Assembly: GCA_945865635.1 (NCBI GenBank)
Contig: CAMBEP010000006.1
Coordinates: 1 to 64,000, forward strand
Source: Candidatus Kuenenia stuttgartensis
GTDB lineage: Bacteria > Planctomycetota > Planctomycetia > Isosphaerales > Isosphaeraceae
Length of the DNA stretch: 64,000 bases
Reading direction: 5' to 3'
Of this stretch, positions 12,375 to 22,284 are shown in pieces; position 1 is the first letter of the stretch; each line of letters opens with the position of its first letter. A model generated the notes under the pieces. That model was not told where the DNA came from. It worked only from the letters and a program-made list of their open reading frames with translations, and searched no databases. Both the position numbers and the translations under genes were made by a program.

Positions 12375-14363
12375 TTACAAGGGCGACTTAAGTTCGGGGA
12401 GTGGGACCTGCATTTTCAGGTCAGGGTCGTTTTCGGGGTCATCAGGATTAACATGGCCGAGGGGATTGATTGGTGATGTTCCCTCGGCAGATCTTGGCGG
12501 ATTGGCCGCTGCCTCGGCCAGCTTCTTGAGGTGATCGAACCAAGGGGCTGCTTTCGTCGGTGTCAGGCTCAAGCCGCCGGCTCCGTCAGATTCAATTTGA
12601 CCCAAGACTTTCGGCTCAAATCGTAAGAGTTCTGTCAAAATCAGAAGAGCTTGTTCCGAGTCCCCTTGAGCAATTTGTTCTTGGGCGATCAAGGCAATCA
12701 AGCGGGCCCGATCGGTCTCGGTCAGTGACGATATCCCGATCATTTCCAAGGCTTTGAGTGCCTCGGCATGATGATTTGTAAGAATCAAAAACAACGCCGC
12801 TGCCTCAATTTGCCAGCCCGTCAGTTTTTCGAGATCCTTCAGGCTGACACGTTTTGGATCCATTCCAAGACTTCTCAGGCCGATATTTGCGACGCGTCTG
12901 AGCCTGAGGCTTGCGGGCGAATCCCCCTGCCCTTGCTCGATTTCTGGAATGAGCGAAAAGCGTGGTCTGGTTCGCGATTCAGCCAGTTTTTCAGGCGAGG
13001 GCATTTCGTTGTAAATAATTCGAGCAATGTTGGTTACGAGTAGATGACCCCAAACCTGGCGGGCGGCATCATCGGGTGTGAAGGGGTGAATTTGTTCCGA
13101 GATCAGTTCACAGAGGCCTGCTGGTAGTTGGGCCGATTCGAGCGGGAAGGTCTGATGCCCGAATCGAAGGGCAAGCTGGTCGTTCAGGGAGAGTGCAAGG
13201 CTTGAGACTTCCGTATGTAAATCAATTGGTGGGAAGCGTTTGTAGGTGGCCGCCGTTTTAGGCTGGAACCAGATGATCTCCACGGGTCGTGGTGAGATTG
13301 CTGGCGAGTAGAGTAGGAGTTCCTCGTCGGGATCCAGGGTGAATGAGATTCCCGAGAGTCGTTCTGCGGGGAGTACGGGAGTGGCGACAAGTGCGCTGTA
13401 GCGGGTTGCCTTGAGAGTTTTGAGTTCGATTCGGGCGAGTTCAGGCCAATCGGATCCGCTTGGTACACTGAGGGCTTCAGGAGGTTTTTGATGGCGAGCG
13501 ATATAAAGGGCCTGCCCGTCGGCGGAAAAAACGGGGGCGGAGTCGGGCAAGACATTTTGGAGACGAGTGGTGTGCACAGCCTCGTTGATTTTGGTGAGGA
13601 TCAGATCGGCGTTTTTGGCCGGCCAGATTTCGGAACGAAGCCATGCGACCCATTCACCGGTGGGATTGATTTTGGCGAGATGCCCGCCTGGGAATCGTGC
13701 TGCGATTTCTTGGGTGTCGGCACGAAAGAGTAGGAGTTCATCGCGCAGTGGGTCTGCAAAAATCAACAATCGATCAGGCCCGGCCTGCAACTGGTTGAGA
13801 ATGGAGCGGGCCATGGTTCCGATTGGTTTTGGTTGCCATCCGGGGGAGAGTTTTGATTCCCAAATGACGACATCGCCGGGGTTTGTGGTGGGATTTCCTA
13901 AAGAACTGACTTGGTGGATGCGCCAAGTGAGGGAGTTGTCAGGCGAAGTTTCGGCGGCAGCGTAGTAGAGGAATCGGCCGTCCAGGGACCATGCAGGGTC
14001 GCTCAAGAAAAGGGTAGAGCTGGCCAGTTTGTGCCAGAAGTTGAGGTCGGATCGTCCGATCCAGATGGTTTGAATCGATTTTGCGGTTTGATTGGGAGGG
14101 GTGGATTGAGGTTCGAGGAATCGAGCGGGATTGAAAAGCCATCCTGGCTCAAAAACCGGTAATGGTTGGGAAGAATTTTCCTGACGATAGGCGAACCATA
14201 GTCCGTCTGGTGTCCATCGGATTTCGGCGTGTAGCGAATTTTGGGCAAATACAAGAAATATGCAAATCAATTGGTACCGAAGTAGTCGAAAACTTAGGAT
14301 AGAAGCAGATTGCTGGCTTTTCTGGGCCAGAAATAGTTGGTCTGTTCGGAATCGATCTGACAT
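12375..14363 (-). CDS. Secreted beta-propeller-like (PD40/TolB-type) protein with helical C-terminus
   Basis: A 662-residue protein with a hydrophobic export segment (LICIFLVFAQNSLHA) about residues 32-46. Repeated PD40/WD40-like signatures follow: IRWTPDGLWFAYRQ, DPAWSLDGRFLYYAA, INPTGEWVAWLRS, PVFSADGQALYIARH and FTLDPDEELLLYSPA. These are typical of TolB-like beta-propellers. The last third is helical, with Leu/Ala-rich repeats resembling TPR units (HAEALKALEMIGI, IAQGDSEQALLILTELLRFEP). Probably a periplasmic protein-protein interaction scaffold. It faces the fatty-acid-like cluster across a 215-bp divergent gap. Confidence 0.75.
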   Translation of the reverse strand: MSDRFRTDQLFLAQKSQQSASILSFRLLRYQLICIFLVFAQNSLHAEIRWTPDGLWFAYRQENSSQPLPVFEPGWLFNPARFLEPQSTPPNQTAKSIQTIWIGRSDLNFWHKLASSTLFLSDPAWSLDGRFLYYAAAETSPDNSLTWRIHQVSSLGNPTTNPGDVVIWESKLSPGWQPKPIGTMARSILNQLQAGPDRLLIFADPLRDELLLFRADTQEIAARFPGGHLAKINPTGEWVAWLRSEIWPAKNADLILTKINEAVHTTRLQNVLPDSAPVFSADGQALYIARHQKPPEALSVPSGSDWPELARIELKTLKATRYSALVATPVLPAERLSGISFTLDPDEELLLYSPAISPRPVEIIWFQPKTAATYKRFPPIDLHTEVSSLALSLNDQLALRFGHQTFPLESAQLPAGLCELISEQIHPFTPDDAARQVWGHLLVTNIARIIYNEMPSPEKLAESRTRPRFSLIPEIEQGQGDSPASLRLRRVANIGLRSLGMDPKRVSLKDLEKLTGWQIEAAALFLILTNHHAEALKALEMIGISSLTETDRARLIALIAQEQIAQGDSEQALLILTELLRFEPKVLGQIESDGAGGLSLTPTKAAPWFDHLKKLAEAAANPPRSAEGTSPINPLGHVNPDDPENDPDLKMQVPLPELKSPL

Positions 14364-14484
14364 CCGTGCAGCTCCTTCGGTTCATCGGTCAATCGGCTTC
14401 AAAGTGGTTCAGTTCATGTCTTTGCGAGCCGTTCTGTCCTTCAGGTGGCGAAATCGTCCCGGAATGGGTTCAGAAGGAAAAGGT

Positions 14485-14514
14485 CTGACATGAAGTAATC
14501 CCATCATGTATATT
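14485..14514 (+). promoter_or_regulatory. Candidate promoter of the ketosynthase/dehydratase cluster
   Basis: CTGACA (14485-14490), an 18-base spacer and TATATT (14509-14514), 64 bases before the first dehydratase start, in the divergent gap. A good match to sigma-70-type boxes, by eye. Confidence 0.5.
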
Positions 14515-14578
14515 GGATCAGACGTGCGTTGAAGGCCAGACCAATCAGGTCGAATTTTGCCCCTATTGAGTCCAGACG

Positions 14579-15100
14579 ATGCGATTTGTACTGATAGATC
14601 GAATTCAGGAAATCGTTCCTGGCCAGAGCCTTACGGCGGTGAAGAATCTTTCGCTGGCTGAAGAATATTTGGCGGACCATTTTCCGGGATTTCCGGTGAT
14701 GCCAGGTGTGTTGATGCTTGAGGCGATGACACAGTCGGCAGCTTGGCTGGTTCGGGCGACGGAAGACTTCAAGCACAGCGTGATACTTTTGAAGTCTGCC
14801 AAGATGATCAAGTATGGGAGTTTTGTGGAGCCTGGGCGTCAGCTTTCGGTGCATGTGGAGTTGGCAGGCCCGGTGACCGATCCGCTCAATATCCCGATGA
14901 AGGGTAAGGGCGTGATTGATGGTCAGGTGATGGTTCAGGGCAAATTCAGCCTGATATGTACGAATCTTCGAGACCGCGACCCACAACTGGCATCGACCGA
15001 TGCGGCGCTGGTAGAGCATCTGAGGGAGCTATACTCAACCCTTGTCATGGGTTCAGTGGCATCCAAGGCGCGTGACAAAGCCGCAGCGGAAGCGATTTGA
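14579..15100 (+). CDS. FabZ-like 3-hydroxyacyl-ACP dehydratase, first of two
   Basis: A 173-residue hotdog-fold protein. FabZ removes water from 3-hydroxyacyl-ACP to give enoyl-ACP. The catalytic pair is intact: H34 in ADHFPGFPVMPG and E48 in MLEAMTQ, with FabZ spacing. The beginning MRFVLIDRIQEI matches the FabZ start (xLLVDRVLEL). It is about 25 residues longer than usual FabZ, with an Ala/Lys-rich C-terminal tail (SVASKARDKAAAEAI). It opens a six-gene cluster and is a clear paralogue of the protein at 15863-16363, with H34 and E48 at the same positions in both. Separate retention of two copies suggests different chain substrates or a heteromer. Confidence 0.92.
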   Translation: MRFVLIDRIQEIVPGQSLTAVKNLSLAEEYLADHFPGFPVMPGVLMLEAMTQSAAWLVRATEDFKHSVILLKSAKMIKYGSFVEPGRQLSVHVELAGPVTDPLNIPMKGKGVIDGQVMVQGKFSLICTNLRDRDPQLASTDAALVEHLRELYSTLVMGSVASKARDKAAAEAI

Positions 15101-15237
15101 TGACTCATCCAAGCCACTTTGCGAAGAATTGTGAAAGCTGAGCTTGCATAAAATTGGCTTCGCTATCATATTTTGTGGAATCGGCAAATTTTCGCCGCAG
15201 TGTCGAATATCATGATATGATATTTGGAACCGTATGT

Positions 15238-15290
15238 GACAGAGGTTGGCCGAGCGGTTGGGCTTCATGGTGGGGCTTGAGCCCCGGCAG
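15238..15290 (+). other. tRNA-Ser/Leu-like 5' fragment in the ACP leader
   Basis: The stretch holds an acceptor-like ACAGAGG, then GGCCGAGCGGTTGGGC, which is like the D-arm of type II tRNAs and shares CCGAGCGG with the real tRNA-Ser at 2440-2525. After this it leaves the tRNA pattern and forms a GGGGC-TTGA-GCCCC hairpin (15272-15285). It has no T-arm or 3' acceptor. It may be a degenerate tRNA fragment or chance. It lies in the untranslated gap before the acyl carrier protein gene. A perfect 12-bp palindrome (ATATCATGATAT) lies just upstream at 15207-15218. Confidence 0.2.
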
Positions 15291-15321
15291 TTCAGGATTA
15301 CTCAAACTTGAGAGGTGCGTA

Positions 15322-15711
15322 ATGGCGACACAGGAAGAAATCTTCAAGAAAGTTCAATCCACATTGGTTGATGCCCTTGGTGTCGACGAAGAGCAAGTGG
15401 AGCCGGGCGCAACCCTGCAAGGCGATCTTGAGGCAGAATCGATCGACTTTTTGGACATCGTGTTTCGCTTGGAGCGAAATTTTGGGATCACGATTCCACG
15501 TGGCGAACTTTTTCCTGAGAATCTGACGAGCGACCCGAGTTTGATCTCGGACGGCATGCTGACACCAAAGGGTATTGAAGAATTGGCTGAGCGCATGCCT
15601 TATGCGGACATGACAGAATTCGCGAAGAATCCTGAAGTGGATCGTATCGGCGATTTGTACACAGTGGACATGCTGGTTCGGTATGTCGCGAGCAAGCTTG
15701 CTTCGAAGTGA
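15322..15711 (+). CDS. Acyl carrier protein with an internal insertion
   Basis: A 129-residue carrier protein; usual ACPs have about 80 residues. The phosphopantetheine site is S40 in EAESIDFLDIVFRLE, with Glu-Ser-Ile in place of the common Asp-Ser-Leu. Helix I (EEIFKKVQSTLVDALGV) and helix II (SIDFLDIVFRLERNF) look normal. The helix III equivalent (IGDLYTVDMLVRYVASKL) comes only after about 45 extra residues that include ENLTSDPSLISDGMLTPKGI and LAERMPYADM. The ATG at 15322 follows GAGAGGTG; the frame is open further upstream but through the tRNA-like segment, so I reject that. It would carry the growing acyl chain for the flanking dehydratases and ketosynthases. Confidence 0.93.
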   Translation: MATQEEIFKKVQSTLVDALGVDEEQVEPGATLQGDLEAESIDFLDIVFRLERNFGITIPRGELFPENLTSDPSLISDGMLTPKGIEELAERMPYADMTEFAKNPEVDRIGDLYTVDMLVRYVASKLASK

Positions 15712-15862
15712 TTTCTGGCCCCAGGTGCCGGGAGTTTTGAAGCGGGCAAATGCAATGACAGGCTCGACTTGAGGGTTGAGAGGAAATGCTGTCTGATTAC
15801 GAGGCGGGGTGTCTCTCAGATCCCGCCTGTACCAATGAAAAAAAACGTGGAGAACTCGGGGC

Positions 15863-16363
15863 ATGCGTTGGATCTGGATCGACAAATTCCTCGAATTCCG
15901 AAGTGGGGATTTCGCACGGGCTGTCAAAAACCTGACGCTTGCTGAAGAGCATCTTCACGATCATTATCCTGGTTTCCCAGTGATGCCTGCCTCTCTGATA
16001 ATTGAGGGGATGGCGCAGACGGGCGGGATTTTAGTGGGCGAGGCCAAGAACTTTGAAGAGAAGGTGGTTCTTGCCAAGATTCCGAAAGCGGAATTTTATG
16101 GAGTTGCCTGTGCTGGCGACCAACTGATTTATGATGTCAAGGTGCTTGATCTTCGTGCTGAAGGCGCGGTGGTTGCATGCAAGGCGTTTGTAAACGGGCT
16201 GGAAACGTTGCTTGCAGATGTCGAGATTGTGTTTGCACATCTGGATAACTCCCGTGCCAATCAACTTTTTGGTCCTAAGAATTTTGTCTTTACCCGACAA
16301 CTTCTTGGTGTGCTTGACCTGGCCAAGGCCCAGCAGGCTTCACTGGCTGAACCCGCGAACTGA
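15863..16363 (+). CDS. FabZ-like 3-hydroxyacyl-ACP dehydratase, second of two
   Basis: A 166-residue hotdog dehydratase paralogous to the protein at 14579-15100. H34 (HDHYPGFPVMPA) and E48 (IIEGMAQTGG) are kept at identical positions, and VKNLTLAEEHL matches VKNLSLAEEYL in the first copy. Differences are the Trp-rich start (MRWIWIDKFLEF) and the shorter tail (about residues 135-166). The start at 15863 follows a GGAG 11-12 bases upstream. It sits between the carrier protein and the ketosynthase-like gene in the same orientation. Confidence 0.9.
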   Translation: MRWIWIDKFLEFRSGDFARAVKNLTLAEEHLHDHYPGFPVMPASLIIEGMAQTGGILVGEAKNFEEKVVLAKIPKAEFYGVACAGDQLIYDVKVLDLRAEGAVVACKAFVNGLETLLADVEIVFAHLDNSRANQLFGPKNFVFTRQLLGVLDLAKAQQASLAEPAN

Positions 16364-16465
16364 ACCGAGTGTCTTAAGGCCCGGCCCGACTTGACTTTTG
16401 GTGCATACCAGGCGGTATGTTTAACAGAAGTCAGTTTACACGCCGCATTGGGAATTTGATTTGGC

Positions 16466-17785
16466 ATGAATGCGACCGCTTCACGAGTTGTCATTACGGG
16501 CTTGGGTGTGAGTTGCCCGATGGCCACGGGGCAAGCGGAATTGACCACGGCTTTACGTGAGGGACGAAGCGGCATAGCTCAAATCGAGAGCTTTCCGGTG
16601 CCCGCCCTTGTGACTCCGGCTGTTGGTGAAATTCGTGGCTTTGACCCCAAGAATTACGTCATTCCGCGCCTCAAGAAGACGCTTGCCAAGAGCCTGAAGT
16701 ATATGGCTCGTGATATCCAGTTGGCTGTTGCCATGGCTCAGGTTGCGCTTCAGGACGCTGGTCTTGCCGATGGTGGAGTGGATCCGACCCGGATCGGCCT
16801 CGACCTTGGTGCTGGGATCATTTCTACAGATCTCCAAGAGCTTTCGCCAGCGATCGAGCGATCTTACGACAAAGGCGACAAGTTTCATTACCGGATTTGG
16901 GGTCAGGAAGGCATCAAGCTGGTGCAGCCAATTTGGCTCCTGAAATATTTGCCCAACATGCTTGCCTGCCACATTTCGATTCTTTCGGATTGTCAAGGGC
17001 CATCCAACACAATTACGGAAGGCGATGCGTCCTCCGGTCTGGCGATTGGTGAGGCATTTCGTATTCTCCAGCGAAATCGTGCGGATGTCATGATTTCAGG
17101 CGGTGCAGATTCGAAGATTCACCCGCTGAGCTACGTTCGTGCCTATTTATTGGGTTTGATTACGAAGTGGCGGGGTGATACGACACAGGCCTCCAGGCCG
17201 TTTGACAGCCAGTCGACAGGTCTTGTGCTGGGCGAAGGTTCGGGCATTGTGATCATGGAGCGGTTATTGCATGCGGAATCTCGTAGTGCACGGATTTATG
17301 GCGAGGTGATTGGAATCGGCTCTGGCTCCGATGCCAGAATGATTGGCGATGAGCTGACCGGGCTCGGGGTGGAGATCGCCCTTCGAACCGCACTTGTTGA
17401 TGCTGGATTGACTGCTGAAGACAAGTCGATCAGCCACATTCATGCACACGGAATTGGCGTGCCCATGCTTGACAGGGCGGAAGCCTCTGCCATTGGCAAG
17501 GTTTTTGTCAATCGGCCCGGCATTCGTGTGACCAGTATCAAGGGTGGTACAGGCAACATGGGTGCTGGCAACGGTGGAGTCGAGGTGATTGCCAACCTGC
17601 TTGCCATGCGGGATGGATTTATCCCTCCGACAATTCATTGTGATTCGCCCGTTTCGGAATACGGCTTGAATCTCGTCAGAGAACTGAATGTACCTGTCGA
17701 GGGCGACATTTTCATCAGCCTGAATCTGACCCGATATGGTCAGGCGTCGTGCGTGATCGTTCGGGCCTGGCCTAAGGCGAGTTAA
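16466..17785 (+). CDS. Ketosynthase-like protein without Cys nucleophile (KS-beta/chain-length-factor-like)
   Basis: A 439-residue FabF-fold protein. The start (ASRVVITGLGVSCPMATG) and the late GGADSKIHPLSY, SRPFDSQSTGLVLGEGSGIVIME segments are typical of KAS II. The active site is altered. The position of the Cys in the ACAT-type nucleophile motif is D187 (TEGDASSGLAIGEA); the first His is kept (H328 in HAHGIG); the second His, normally KSMTGH, is N364 (KGGTGN). It therefore cannot run normal decarboxylative condensation. The known precedent is KS-beta/CLF of type II polyketide synthases, where Cys is replaced (by Gln) and the protein pairs with an active KS. The active KS gene follows directly at 17913. 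Its pairing here is inferred. Confidence 0.93.
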   Translation: MNATASRVVITGLGVSCPMATGQAELTTALREGRSGIAQIESFPVPALVTPAVGEIRGFDPKNYVIPRLKKTLAKSLKYMARDIQLAVAMAQVALQDAGLADGGVDPTRIGLDLGAGIISTDLQELSPAIERSYDKGDKFHYRIWGQEGIKLVQPIWLLKYLPNMLACHISILSDCQGPSNTITEGDASSGLAIGEAFRILQRNRADVMISGGADSKIHPLSYVRAYLLGLITKWRGDTTQASRPFDSQSTGLVLGEGSGIVIMERLLHAESRSARIYGEVIGIGSGSDARMIGDELTGLGVEIALRTALVDAGLTAEDKSISHIHAHGIGVPMLDRAEASAIGKVFVNRPGIRVTSIKGGTGNMGAGNGGVEVIANLLAMRDGFIPPTIHCDSPVSEYGLNLVRELNVPVEGDIFISLNLTRYGQASCVIVRAWPKAS

Positions 17786-17912
17786 CGCAATCTGTTCCGA
17801 TGTAGGACTTTTCAACGATTTTTGCAAGCAACTGCTGGATTGGCACCTGACAGAAGCGGTCGTACGCTTGATCAGAACCTGCTAAGTGCCATCCTGACGA
17901 GGTGAATTGAAC

Positions 17913-19202
17913 ATGCGTCGAAGAGTCGTGGTGACAGGCATGGGTATGGTCACTCCCATTGGCAAAGATGTTGAGCAGACATGGAAAGCGCTTCAAGAGG
18001 GGCGTAGCGGGGTTGGCCCGATCACGCTTTTTGAAGCCGATACTTTCCCGACCAGAATTGCGGCCGAGATACATAATTTCGAGCTGAGTGATTATCTTGA
18101 GAACGCAAGCGATTGGCCGGTTTTATCGCGGAATTCGATTTTTGCAGTGGCCGCAGGTCAGATGGCCATGAACGATGCTGGGCTGTCATCGACCGACATG
18201 CCCTTGGACCGATCCCGGATAGGGGTTTATCTTGGTGCAGGTGAGGGCCAGCAGGACTTCCCCCATTTCTGTGCATCCGTGCACAGCGGCACGGTGGATG
18301 ACCAGGTTCAAAAGGACAGGTTTATTCACAACGGAGTGAATATTCTAGAGGCTTGGGCTGAATCCGAGCAGGACCCGGGCACACCGACAGCACATGTGGC
18401 CGCCATGGCCAATGCGCAAGGCCCAAATTACACGTGTCTTACAGCTTGTGCGGCAAGTTCCCAGGCCATTGGTGAGGCACTGGAGCAGATACGTCGCGGC
18501 GACGCCGACATCATTCTCTCAGGCGGAACGCACAGCATGATCCACCCGTTTGGTGTGACGGGATTTATTCTTTTGACGGCCCTTTCGACAAGCAATGCAG
18601 AGCCTCAAAAGGCGAGTCGGCCGTTTGATCGGGATCGCAACGGATTCATTCTGGGGGAAGGTGCGGGGGTTGTGGTGCTTGAAGAACTTGAGCACGCCAA
18701 AGCTCGTGGAGCAAGGATTTATGGCGAATTGATCGGTTATGGTTCCACAGCGGATGCCTTCCGGATCACGGACAGCCATGACGAAGGCCGGGGAGCGATT
18801 GCGTGCTTGAAAGAGGCGTTGGCCGATGCCGGAATTTCGCCCGAAGCGATTCAGTACATCAATGCACACGGCACGAGCACGGAAGTCAACGACAAGATTG
18901 AAACGCTTGCCATCAAAAAGGCTTTGGGCGAAGCGGCTTACAAGATTCCGATATCGAGTACAAAAAGCATGATGGGCCATCTGATTGCGGCCGCTGGGGC
19001 GGTCGAGGCGATCATTTGCCTTTTGGCGATTCGCGACGGGATCATGCCGCCAACGATCAACCTTGATTCTCCGTCTGATGATTGCGATCTGGATTATATT
19101 CCGCATGTGGCTCGCAAGGGGAGAGTGGATGTCGCCCTGTCCAACAGTTTCGGCTTTGGTGGTCAGAATGTGAGTCTGATTCTCAGACGCTATGAGGAAT
19201 GA
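17913..19202 (+). CDS. Active 3-oxoacyl-ACP synthase, KAS II/KS-alpha-like
   Basis: A 429-residue beta-ketoacyl-ACP synthase. The Cys-His-His triad is complete: C179 in CLTACAASSQAIGEA, H319 in NAHGTSTEVND and H356 in KSMMGHLIAAAGAVE. The ATG at 17913 follows GAGGTGA with good spacing; a TTG two codons upstream is less likely. The nucleophile motif with CAASSQAIGE resembles KS-alpha enzymes of type II systems as well as FabF. It would condense malonyl-ACP with the growing chain and probably forms a dimer with the Cys-less protein encoded just upstream (127-bp gap). Confidence 0.95.
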   Translation: MRRRVVVTGMGMVTPIGKDVEQTWKALQEGRSGVGPITLFEADTFPTRIAAEIHNFELSDYLENASDWPVLSRNSIFAVAAGQMAMNDAGLSSTDMPLDRSRIGVYLGAGEGQQDFPHFCASVHSGTVDDQVQKDRFIHNGVNILEAWAESEQDPGTPTAHVAAMANAQGPNYTCLTACAASSQAIGEALEQIRRGDADIILSGGTHSMIHPFGVTGFILLTALSTSNAEPQKASRPFDRDRNGFILGEGAGVVVLEELEHAKARGARIYGELIGYGSTADAFRITDSHDEGRGAIACLKEALADAGISPEAIQYINAHGTSTEVNDKIETLAIKKALGEAAYKIPISSTKSMMGHLIAAAGAVEAIICLLAIRDGIMPPTINLDSPSDDCDLDYIPHVARKGRVDVALSNSFGFGGQNVSLILRRYEE

Positions 19203-19300
19203 TTTCCCCAGTCGAGATCCGCAAGCAGAGCAACGCAATCCGTCTTGGAACGTATCATGAGCCTCTTGTCCCACACCTGTTGTAATCGGAGAATTCCAAG

Positions 19301-20344
19301 GTGGATTTAAAGCTGTTTGCCGAGATCCTGCTTGGCCTGCTCCTGATGGCCGTTCTTTTTGGAGTTTGGTGCGACCAGCGCTATAGTCGTCGTATCCTTT
19401 TGCCTAAAATCTCTGAGAAGCCAATGTTTATGGCTTTACGAGTGACACCGTGTGAAGATGGGGAGTCTGTCAAGTTCAGCACACGCGATGGCAAACTGCT
19501 GCGAGGCGTTTATGTACGAACAACGGCTCCAAAACGAGCAGGCATCCTGATTTTCAGTCATGAATTTCTGGCGGATCGATGGAGTTTTCAGGTTTACGCA
19601 GAAGGTGTTCGGGAAGCGGGATTTGACATCTTCAGCTTCGACTTTCGCAATCATGGAGAGAGCGACGAAGACCCGACCCACCCAAGCTTGCAGTGGCTGA
19701 CGGACCGGGAATATATGGATCTTGAGGCGGCTCTGGATTATGTTCGCAGTCGCCCGGATCATGACGAAACCGGAGTGGCCCTGTTCGGAGTCAGTCGTGG
19801 CGGGTGTGTCTCTCTGGCCATGGCCGCGAAGCGAACGGATGTATGGGGTGTGATCACGGACAGTGCATTCCCAACGGTTGGCACGCTCGTACCCTACATG
19901 ATTCGTTTTGCCACCCTTTATGTGAAAATGGGCACGATTGTCGAGAAGTTTCCGAGCTTTGTTTTTCGGTTTATCGGGTACAGGGGGATCTCCAAGGCCG
20001 AGAAAAAGTACGGCTGCCGATTCCTCCACCTGGAATCGCTGGTGGGTAAGATTTCGCCACGGCCTTGGCTGGCAATTCATGGTCAGTCTGACAATTACAT
20101 CACAACGGATGTGGCAGAAAGGCTTTTTAATTTGGCTGGTCAGCCCAAAGAGATGTGGGTGGTTTCCAAAGCCAAGCACAACCGATCGCAGCAAATCGAG
20201 CCGGAGGAATATCGGCGTCGGATTACCGAATTTCTTTGCTCAAATGCCCCATCGCGACAGGCTTCGATGACGGATTCAAATTATAAGCGAATGACTCAGC
20301 CTGAGAGTTCCGGCGACCGACTGATACAGACTGCAAATTCATGA
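19301..20344 (+). CDS. Membrane-anchored alpha/beta hydrolase, last gene of the cluster
   Basis: A 347-residue serine hydrolase. One N-terminal TM segment (LFAEILLGLLLMAVLFGVW, residues 4-22) anchors it. The hydrolase domain shows the nucleophile elbow GVSRGG with S165, the oxyanion-side region FSHEFLADRW, FDFRNHGES, the acid in IHGQSDNYI, and the His in SKAKHNRS near residue 290. The start is GTG at 19301 with GGAG nine bases upstream. It is 98 bp after the ketosynthase, same strand. It may release or hydrolyse the acyl product at the membrane, but this is inference; the hydrolase family is broad. Confidence 0.88.
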   Translation: MDLKLFAEILLGLLLMAVLFGVWCDQRYSRRILLPKISEKPMFMALRVTPCEDGESVKFSTRDGKLLRGVYVRTTAPKRAGILIFSHEFLADRWSFQVYAEGVREAGFDIFSFDFRNHGESDEDPTHPSLQWLTDREYMDLEAALDYVRSRPDHDETGVALFGVSRGGCVSLAMAAKRTDVWGVITDSAFPTVGTLVPYMIRFATLYVKMGTIVEKFPSFVFRFIGYRGISKAEKKYGCRFLHLESLVGKISPRPWLAIHGQSDNYITTDVAERLFNLAGQPKEMWVVSKAKHNRSQQIEPEEYRRRITEFLCSNAPSRQASMTDSNYKRMTQPESSGDRLIQTANS

Positions 20345-20358
20345 TTCTTTTAGAATCA
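20342..20358 (+). terminator. Hairpin at the end of the six-gene cluster
   Basis: TGATTCT (20342-20348, including the stop codon) pairs perfectly with AGAATCA (20352-20358) around TTT. No T-run follows, so this is a weak terminator candidate or a 3' mRNA stabiliser. Confidence 0.35.
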
Positions 20359-20461
20359 CTTAACGCAGTCAATCCGTTCTTAACTCTATTTTAGCATGAG
20401 AGATGAGACAGCCTGGGGTGGTCTAAAGCCATGGCATACCATCAATCTCACCCTGATTTGG

Positions 20462-20491
20462 TTGATGGATTCCCCATCAAGGCTCTATAAT
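20462..20491 (+). promoter_or_regulatory. Promoter of purF
   Basis: TTGATG (20462-20467), an 18-base spacer and a perfect TATAAT (20486-20491). It lies in the 311-bp gap before purF and implies a leader of about 160 bases. Apart from this promoter, the leader hairpin and the cluster-end hairpin I see nothing in the gap. Confidence 0.7.
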
Positions 20492-20571
20492 TTGGACCTG
20501 AGCCTTTCGTGAAAATCGTATGAAGCGATATTTGCAATCTGGCCGAGGTAAAACGGTGCCGCTCTTGTTCG

Positions 20572-20612
20572 GAGACCAGTGCGAAGCCATGTTACCCGGA
20601 TGGCCTGGTCTC
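20572..20612 (+). promoter_or_regulatory. Stable leader hairpin upstream of purF
   Basis: GAGACCAG (20572-20579) pairs with CTGGTCTC (20605-20612). Above a six-base bulge, GCCAT (20586-20590) pairs with ATGGC (20600-20604) around a nine-base loop. Three T follow. It lies 44 bases before the start codon and could act as an attenuator or as an mRNA structure; it does not match a purine riboswitch that I know. Confidence 0.45.
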
Positions 20613-20655
20613 TTTGATTGGATCCAGTGTCCCGGCGTGGAGTCATCCGACGATC

Positions 20656-22284
20656 ATGGCTGAATTACATCATGAATGCGGTATTGCAGCGGTTTATCTC
20701 AGACCATCTGAGACTCAATTCCCTCGCTTGCCGTTCGGAATCCATAATCCCGATCAAGTGGCCCGCATGGTCCCCCGCATGCTTCTTGACATGCAAAACC
20801 GAGGCCAGCTTGCGGCCGGCATGACGAGTTACAGCCCTGGCAGGTCGTCGATTCTGGCCACTCACAAAGACCTCGGTACAGTGGCAGAGGCGTTTCGGCT
20901 CAATGCGAAGCCGGAATTTGAGGCTCTGATGAGCCATTTGGGTGGTCCCGCAGCGATCGGCCATGTGCGTTATGCAACGTGTGGCACGGACGACCGGGAT
21001 GCGGCCCAGCCCTTCGAGCGTGATCATGGCCGCAAGTTCAAGTGGTTTTCGTTCGCGTTCAATGGTCAGTTGACCAATTATGCCCAGCTCAAGCAAGACA
21101 TGCTGAAAAGTGGCGATTATCACCTCAAGCGTGATCTGGATACGGAGATCATCCTCCATTCCATCAGCCACGAGTTGCAATCGGTCGAAGCACCGATCGA
21201 CTGGGTCAGAGTTTTTCGGAACCTCGCCCAGAAGTTTGACGGAGCTTATAATATCGTACTGATGACGGCCTCAGGCGAGATGATCGTTGCACGAGACCCG
21301 CTTGGTATTCGTCCGCTCTGCTTTGCCGAGGATGGTCCTCTGTTCGCCGCTGCCAGCGAAAGTGTTCCTCTGGCGAATCTTGGATTTCACCGGATTCGCT
21401 CTCTGGAGCCGGGTCAGATGGCGATTATTTCACCGGATGGGATCCGGTTTGAACGCTTTGCGGAATCCACCCGCCACGCCCACTGCTTTTTTGAATGGAT
21501 CTATTTCGCGAATGTGGCAAGCACACTCGATGAACGGTCGGTCTATCTCAGTCGAGCCATGCTTGGCCGGGAGTTGGCCCGCCTGGAAGATGTGACCCTT
21601 GATTCCGATACAATCGTTGTGCCAGTTCCCGATACAGCCAAGGCGGCAGCCGATGCCATGGCTTACACGCTTGGAGTTCCTTCGGTGGAAGGGCTGATGC
21701 GGAATCGATATTTGGGAAGGACATTCATCGAAGGCAATGCGGACCGAGCCTCAAAAGCCCGCCTGAAATACACCCCCCTGCCCGAGGTCCTGTCGGGCAA
21801 GCGTGTTCTTCTGGTAGAGGATTCGATCGTCCGATCCACCACCATGCGTGCCTTGGTCCACGAGATCAGGAACCGCGGCGGGGCTCGTGAAATTCACTTG
21901 CGTATTGCGTGCCCGCCGATTATTGCGCCCTGCTATTATGGAATCGACATGTCCCAGCGTGCCGAACTTTTTGCACCCAAGTTTCTTGATGAGAACCAGG
22001 GGCTCCTGACCGCCGAAGTTCAGGCCCAGATGGCGGCCGATCTCGGAGCAGACTCACTTCGATATTTACCCGTCGAGGCGTTGGCACGATCCGTTGGTCT
22101 TCCTCCCGAACGATTGTGTCAGGCCTGTGTGACAGGCGATTACCCAACACCTGCTGGCCAAAAGCTTTATCAGATTGATCTGGCGCAGGATCTGAAATCA
22201 AAAAGTCTTCCAGTACCGGGCTGTGGCGCACTCAGTGGTGGTGAGCTTGTCAGTTCAGGCATGACAAGACGGGCTTACGAATAA
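20656..22284 (+). CDS. purF: Amidophosphoribosyltransferase, Fe-S type
   Basis: A 542-residue glutamine-PRPP amidotransferase, the first committed step of purine synthesis (PRPP plus glutamine to phosphoribosylamine). From the ATG at 20656 the sequence starts [15 protein letters not shown]. Cys8 would be the N-terminal nucleophile after removal of a seven-residue propeptide, as in the Bacillus-type enzyme. The glutaminase domain covers about 1-250. The PRPP motif [15 protein letters not shown] lies near residue 385. Cysteines in [19 protein letters not shown] and [11 protein letters not shown] fit the four ligands of the [4Fe-4S] cluster of Bacillus-type PurF. The segment [13 protein letters not shown] differs from the usual LQHRGQESAGI, so a paralogue with a related role is possible. 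Confidence 0.9.

Follow-up and report, generated by a model that had tools for sequence, protein, structure and literature searches.

A planctomycete acyl carrier protein with a probably folded insert between helices II and III, encoded between two FabZ-like genes

The acyl carrier protein (ACP) encoded at 15322 of the window, by which we mean the whole 64,000-nucleotide stretch of DNA that was analysed, carries, between its helices II and III, an insert of about 46 residues, which according to structure models most likely folds into a small lobe and is not a tail. We propose, with a probability of about 0.55, that this ACP serves as a carrier dedicated to a second type II elongation module, which runs in parallel to ordinary fatty acid synthesis, and that the insert selects the enzymes of that module. 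Because the ACP gene is in every genome of the class sample and lies nearly always between two dehydratase genes, it points to a second lipid-building system rather than to a one-off oddity. The features of the gene row are given in Table 1.

Table 1. The insert-bearing ACP and its neighbours in the window
Feature	Coordinates	Strand	Basis
FabZ1, 3-hydroxyacyl-ACP dehydratase-like, 173 aa, DHFPGFPVMPGV motif	14579..15100	+	PF07977 64.6 bits
Insert-bearing acyl carrier protein, 129 aa, S40 in ESID	15322..15711	+	PF00550, AlphaFold model, 51 orthologues
Insert, about residues 66-111	15517..15654	+	Alignment with primary ACP, model, insert-alone prediction
FabZ2, second dehydratase-like, 166 aa, DHYPGFPVMPAS motif	15863..16363	+	PF07977 52.6 bits
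Chain-length-factor (CLF)-like KS without catalytic Cys	16466..17785	+	PF00109/PF02801; EGDASS (Asp), GN with Asn at the second His
Ketosynthase (KS), intact Cys-His-His	17907..19202	+	TACAASS, NAHGTST, GH; FabF model 502.8 bits, cut-off 493.75
Alpha/beta hydrolase, hydrophobic N terminus	19301..20344	+	PF00561 45.1 bits

The carrier protein and its insert

The translated window has an ATG at 15322 that opens a frame of 129 residues, and S40 in AESIDFLDI as well as the segments ISDGMLTPKGI, LAERMPYADM and TVDMLVRYV, on which the earlier note had drawn, are all present in it. That this gene is a prediction artefact was ruled out because the frame is conserved in 51 orthologues. The protein is an ACP by fold and by Pfam, and phosphopantetheinylation of S40 would be expected from its sequence. 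The PF00550 match (35.2 bits, cut-off 20.8) is confined to residues 10-64 because the extra residues come next. The scores with the housekeeping AcpP models are below threshold, being 43.7 bits against a cut-off of 70.45 for TIGR00517 and 60.5 bits against a cut-off of 66 for the best PRK00982 model, and so is the score of 37.0 bits against a cut-off of 83 with NF005079 (PRK06508), which we take to be the AcpXL model.

The four-helix core and the serine at the start of helix II are shared with housekeeping AcpP, whereas the extra block between helices II and III is not. This block had been put at about 45 residues, and both its size and its place were borne out: aligned with the genome's own 82-residue ACP it spans about 46 residues (66-111), and in the model the equivalent of helix III is at 106-112 and helix IV is at 115-128. 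However, TVDMLVRYV, which had been named as the helix III signature, is helix IV in the four-helix numbering. It is in the model helix 115-128 and aligns with TTVGQAIDYI of the 82-residue ACP, and helix IV has been described, in the same numbering, as beginning with a conserved Thr (PMC7949117).

AlphaFold2 was run on 21 aligned sequences, namely, the window ACP and 20 relatives, and the full-length model had a mean pLDDT of 86.9 and a pTM of 0.80. It has helices at 4-19, 40-54, 82-91, 106-112, and 115-128 and short strands at 75-76 and 79-80, with S40 at the start of helix 40-54. The insert is thus laid out in the model as a loop, a hairpin (75-80), a helix (82-91), and a second loop that leads into the equivalent of helix III. 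The four-helix core superposes on solved ACPs. With Thermus ACP 1x3o the superposition gave a Z of 15.6, a value that is commonly high for helical bundles although for 1x3o the sequence matches as well, at 1.3 Å for 80/80 residues over model residues 2-127, which leaves about 46 unaligned. When residues 58-113 were predicted alone the same hairpin and helices were obtained at lower confidence (pLDDT 74.7, pTM 0.53), with residues 4-11 of the fragment below a pLDDT of 50. The alternative that the extra residues are a simple C-terminal tail was checked by structure prediction, which put a hairpin and a helix between helices II and III instead, and it is because the full-length and the insert-alone models give the same elements that we read the insert as a folded lobe. 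None of 15 Foldseek matches to the insert-only model was meaningful (best E 5.4), which does not prove that the fold is new, and in a PDB profile search with the insert-bearing ACP the best matches were limited to the core.

Three PP-binding matches were found in the window's genome (5.37 Mb, 134 contigs). Apart from the insert-bearing ACP, these are the 82-residue primary ACP, which adjoins fabG- and fabF-like genes (the names being read from sequence), and a third protein that adjoins a KS. By alignment the insert is absent from both, so that the refuting case set by the earlier note, an insert common to primary ACPs of the same group, does not refute its claim. On a different contig (C49) the genome carries one more FabZ-like gene, and it also has a canonical FabF-like gene and six clear KS matches plus a weak seventh. 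Since canonical ACP, FabZ, and FabF are encoded separately, the FabZ-ACP-FabZ row is additional to the housekeeping synthase. Two further observations concern the lipid genes of these organisms. The third carrier, on contig C11, is flanked on one side by a Cys-bearing KS and on the other by a 366-residue protein that by eye resembles a lipid A type acyltransferase, and the region looks like a further lipid cluster. In many planctomycete genomes without the long ACP, FabZ2 matches are found only in frames of about 440-480 residues, which are probably LpxC-FabZ fusions; LpxC of the window's genome is unfused (344-residue frame; C6:84697-85512).

The gene row and its conservation

Neither a ketoreductase nor an enoyl reductase was seen in the window's row, and no radical SAM or methyltransferase gene was noticed in it. 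In scans for promoters and terminators, neither promoter-like sites (8, with 5.1 expected) nor terminator-like sites (5, with 6.7 expected) clearly exceeded chance. An RNA gene in the gap before the ACP, which has a tRNA-like look, was rejected: ARAGORN reported only a tRNA-Ser at 2438-2525 and Rfam gave nothing at 14200-20700. Upstream of FabZ1 and divergent from it is a gene for a PD40/beta-propeller-like protein (12375-14363, minus strand) that is found in most close relatives but changes quickly, its identity falling from 68% to 22%.

The neighbourhood was compared in 29 stretches of 3.9-15.5 kb, two of them on short contigs, from 29 other genomes of a phylum sample. FabZ-like genes are on both sides of the ACP gene in 29/29, a count that, like the other neighbour and co-occurrence counts given here, is inflated by shared ancestry and describes linkage, not independent trials. 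Upstream it is FabZ1 in 28 and a FabZ2-like match in the 29th; downstream it is FabZ2 in all 29. FabG lies between FabZ1 and the ACP gene in 13/29 but not in the window. At least one KS-like gene is downstream in 17/29 whereas 12/29 have no adjacent KS. The hydrolase follows the KS in close relatives only, and elsewhere it is weakly matched (26-31% in 3/29).

Named contigs, when scanned, yielded 22 loci with 66-91% identity; the titles of several read Isosphaeraceae, Singulisphaera, Aquisphaera, or Paludisphaera. FabZ2 and the CLF-like gene are in 22/22, and FabZ1 and the KS are each in 19/22. As for the missing genes, two loci begin near the ACP and a third has 4.7 kb upstream without FabZ1, while the three stretches without the KS end before it. 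In two of the loci (L034 and L035), on MAG contigs titled 'Candidatus Kuenenia stuttgartiensis', the proteins of the row are 88-99% identical (the ACP 90-91%) and the same PD40 gene lies upstream; these contigs look like misassigned close relatives of the window's organism.

The phylum sample comprised 199 genomes. Matches to the ACP at E<=1e-3 were found in 119/199, many of them through the ACP core only, and near full-length matches (E<=7.4e-34) in 31/199, namely, 12/12 of the same class, with the window's own genome included, and 19/187 others. In a sample of the class itself the ACP was matched at E<=1e-20 in 79/79 genomes from 50 genera, and nearly all of these matches cover the insert, one (G230) ending at residue 87. 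The insert is therefore no peculiarity of this one carrier.

All 51 orthologues carry the insert and are 126-135 residues long, and 50/51 keep the motif [LIVF]TxxGxxx[LM]xxx[LMV]P. E39-S40-I41-D42 is invariant in 51/51, and thus ESID in place of DSLD is a family trait. In these orthologues the top residue of a column has a mean frequency of 0.60 for the insert, compared with 0.64 for helix I and 0.90 for helix II, and the insert is the least conserved of the six segments compared (0.64-0.90 elsewhere). In 10 pairs pN/pS in the insert was 0.19-0.32, a rough estimate with pS at 0.54-0.85 and synonymous sites near saturation. Judged from these sequences, the insert is under constraint.

The KS pair and comparison with known systems

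The earlier note had spoken of a neighbouring KS pair. An intact KS does adjoin, but the active-site columns show that its partner is a CLF-like KS in which Cys is changed to Asp; from these residues the two probably pair as a heterodimer. In the phylum sample a CLF-like match at E<=1e-60, a cut-off that we chose, was found in 28/31 genomes with the ACP and in 0/168 without it. The 14 CLF-like genes that were fetched from positions away from the ACP row, in 14 genomes, are all without Cys (14/14), and of the 30 genomes with the ACP that were looked at, 23 have a Cys-less partner. At that cut-off no CLF-like match was found in three genomes of one genus, which retain the insert. That the insert needs a Cys-less KS partner was rejected because in four genomes, all of one family, both KS next to the ACP have the Cys and the insert is likewise retained. 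In relatives the CLF-like gene often stands alone, well away from the ACP row, and some genomes have two copies of it, as does G105; in such remote genes Cys is replaced mostly by Glu or Asp.

These results divide the claim that the insert is specific for the neighbouring KS pair. What stands is that the insert is predicted to be folded, follows the recognition helix, is not in the other carriers of the genome, and belongs to an ACP that travels with a CLF-like KS. As stated, however, the claim is too narrow, since the invariant neighbours are the two FabZ, with KS-like genes nearby in 17/29 relatives and the CLF-like gene elsewhere in 14 genomes.

The row resembles the highly reducing type II PKS, as in ishigamide Iga10/Iga11 and aryl polyene ApeO-ApeC, which have a discrete ACP, an intact KS with a Cys-less partner, and dehydratases. 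Such KS-CLF/dehydratase polyene systems have been described (PMC7949117, PMC8358021). By active-site residues the window has the KS and the Cys-less CLF, and of the ketoreductase and dehydratases it has the two FabZ, FabG being in the row of the 13 relatives mentioned above. Unlike those systems the window's row is without a ketoreductase, and the ACP gene is universal in the class sample and not part of a scattered secondary-metabolite cluster. By analogy, the ACP resembles a carrier of a highly reducing type II PKS, a resemblance that is short of established membership. The NCBIfam model of AmcB, the related cispentacin ACP, has a length of 80.

In anammox planctomycetes, FASII clusters place a specialised ACP next to divergent FabF genes that lack the catalytic Cys (PMC2649909, PMC9821293). 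The ladderane AmxACP3 (7auf) superposes on the core with a Z of 12.6 over 79 residues, but its 94-residue chain is without such an insert; it has been described as a short ACP with a 3-10 helix III and a Phe-Phe motif (PMC9821293). Cys-less FabF paralogues were noted in 2009 in Rhodopirellula baltica and Kuenenia in section 9 of PMC2649909, a section that does not mention an ACP insert. The literature search, which left most subscription journals outside, found no paper describing such an insert. AcpXL of rhizobia, which serves very long chain acyls of lipid A, is likewise a specialised second ACP, and its gene neighbourhood has a dehydratase and a KS pair, but the profile match to 2kw2 is limited to the core.

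Related inserts were found outside the phylum, within a plasmid collection to which this finding is confined. tblastn against it returned 33 records, and the 8 that cover at least 80% of the query are all from Streptomyces; 16 Streptomyces records were counted in the collection. Five Streptomyces regions were read (NZ_CP108982 and NZ_CP108708 among the clusters), in which ACPs of 133-139 residues lie beside FabD, a KS, a Cys-less KS, and a third large KS; three of the five have a KR and two dehydratases and the other two list no dehydratase. The long ACP with a related insert and the KS with a Cys-less KS are as in the window, whereas the FabD of their own, the further large KS, and the KSIII-like and tailoring genes are not. 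These regions, on linear plasmids (L092-L096), look like type II PKS clusters, with the large KS at about 790 residues. When inserts only were compared, hhalign gave a moderate probability of 63.6 (E 6.7e-5) between planctomycetes and Streptomyces, and 93.5 (2.3e-7) between the orthologues and more distant planctomycete ACPs; 0/200 column-shuffled alignments reached either score. The insert is either older than the separation of the planctomycete and Streptomyces systems or has been shared between the phyla. In phages, four records matched, with the ACP core only.

Proposed role of the insert-bearing carrier

In the module that we propose, phosphopantetheine would be transferred to S40 and the KS/CLF-like pair (17907 and 16466) would condense malonyl units on the ACP, as its active sites suggest. 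A ketoreductase, which is encoded in the row of 13/29 relatives and not in that of the window, would act in trans, and FabZ1 and FabZ2, going by family and motif, would dehydrate. The product would most likely be an acyl chain, unsaturated or of the polyene type, that goes into a class-wide lipid; this is suggested because the row is without an enoyl reductase and is like the KS-CLF/dehydratase polyene systems. The alpha/beta hydrolase is a possible release or lipid enzyme. The insert would form a second, small lobe alongside helices II and III, and its likeliest job may be to favour the module's own enzymes, FabZ pair and KS/CLF alike, over the housekeeping ones; perhaps it also covers the bound chain. 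We prefer partner selection within the module to chain covering, its main rival, although our data cannot tell one from the other. Any claim that the insert has a single named partner is weakened because the insert is kept where the KS pair is of another type or lies elsewhere, is the least conserved segment, and occurs in the two Streptomyces clusters that list no dehydratase.

An explanation that we think unlikely but that has real merit is that the insert is a lid or an enlarged cavity wall sheltering an unusually long or reactive acyl chain, and that partners are chosen by helix II. In the model the insert borders the helix II-III cleft, in which the chain is bound in another ACP (PMC7949117), and it is retained when the KS partner changes type. 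On the other hand, it is acidic (net charge -7 over 61-105) and not strongly hydrophobic. It is distinctly improbable that the insert binds a third protein or the membrane, for example, by docking the carrier to an acyltransferase, and is unconnected with the elongation enzymes. Its conservation even where the KS genes are elsewhere would fit such docking, as would a hydrolase with a hydrophobic N terminus after the KS, but this hydrolase is confined to close relatives or weakly matched, and the linkage of every other gene to the ACP is less constant than that of FabZ1 and FabZ2. Lastly, if the ACP were simply the housekeeping type of the class and its insert a neutral polymorphism in length, this would explain why the ACP is universal in the class sample, but such a reading is strongly disfavoured by the canonical ACP beside fabG/fabF and the separate FabZ in the same genome, by the constraint on the insert, and by the related insert in another phylum.

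The reading of a dedicated carrier that selects its own module's enzymes bears on a wider question. Free-standing ACPs are very uniform, and a conserved, probably folded, and removable lobe of 46 residues after the recognition helix would give a direct handle on what sets the choice of enzymes among several ACPs in one cell. The presence of the ACP gene in every genome of the class sample also points to a core lipid pathway that has gone unrecognised in these bacteria, whose cell envelopes are known to be odd. Tentatively, and at somewhat less than even odds, we suggest that all Planctomycetia may run a core PKS-like second fatty acid synthase on this extra-lobe carrier and make with it an undescribed membrane or envelope lipid, and that the lobe may be an ancient partner-recognition or chain-covering module that is also used in Streptomyces natural-product clusters and would define an ACP subfamily across phyla.
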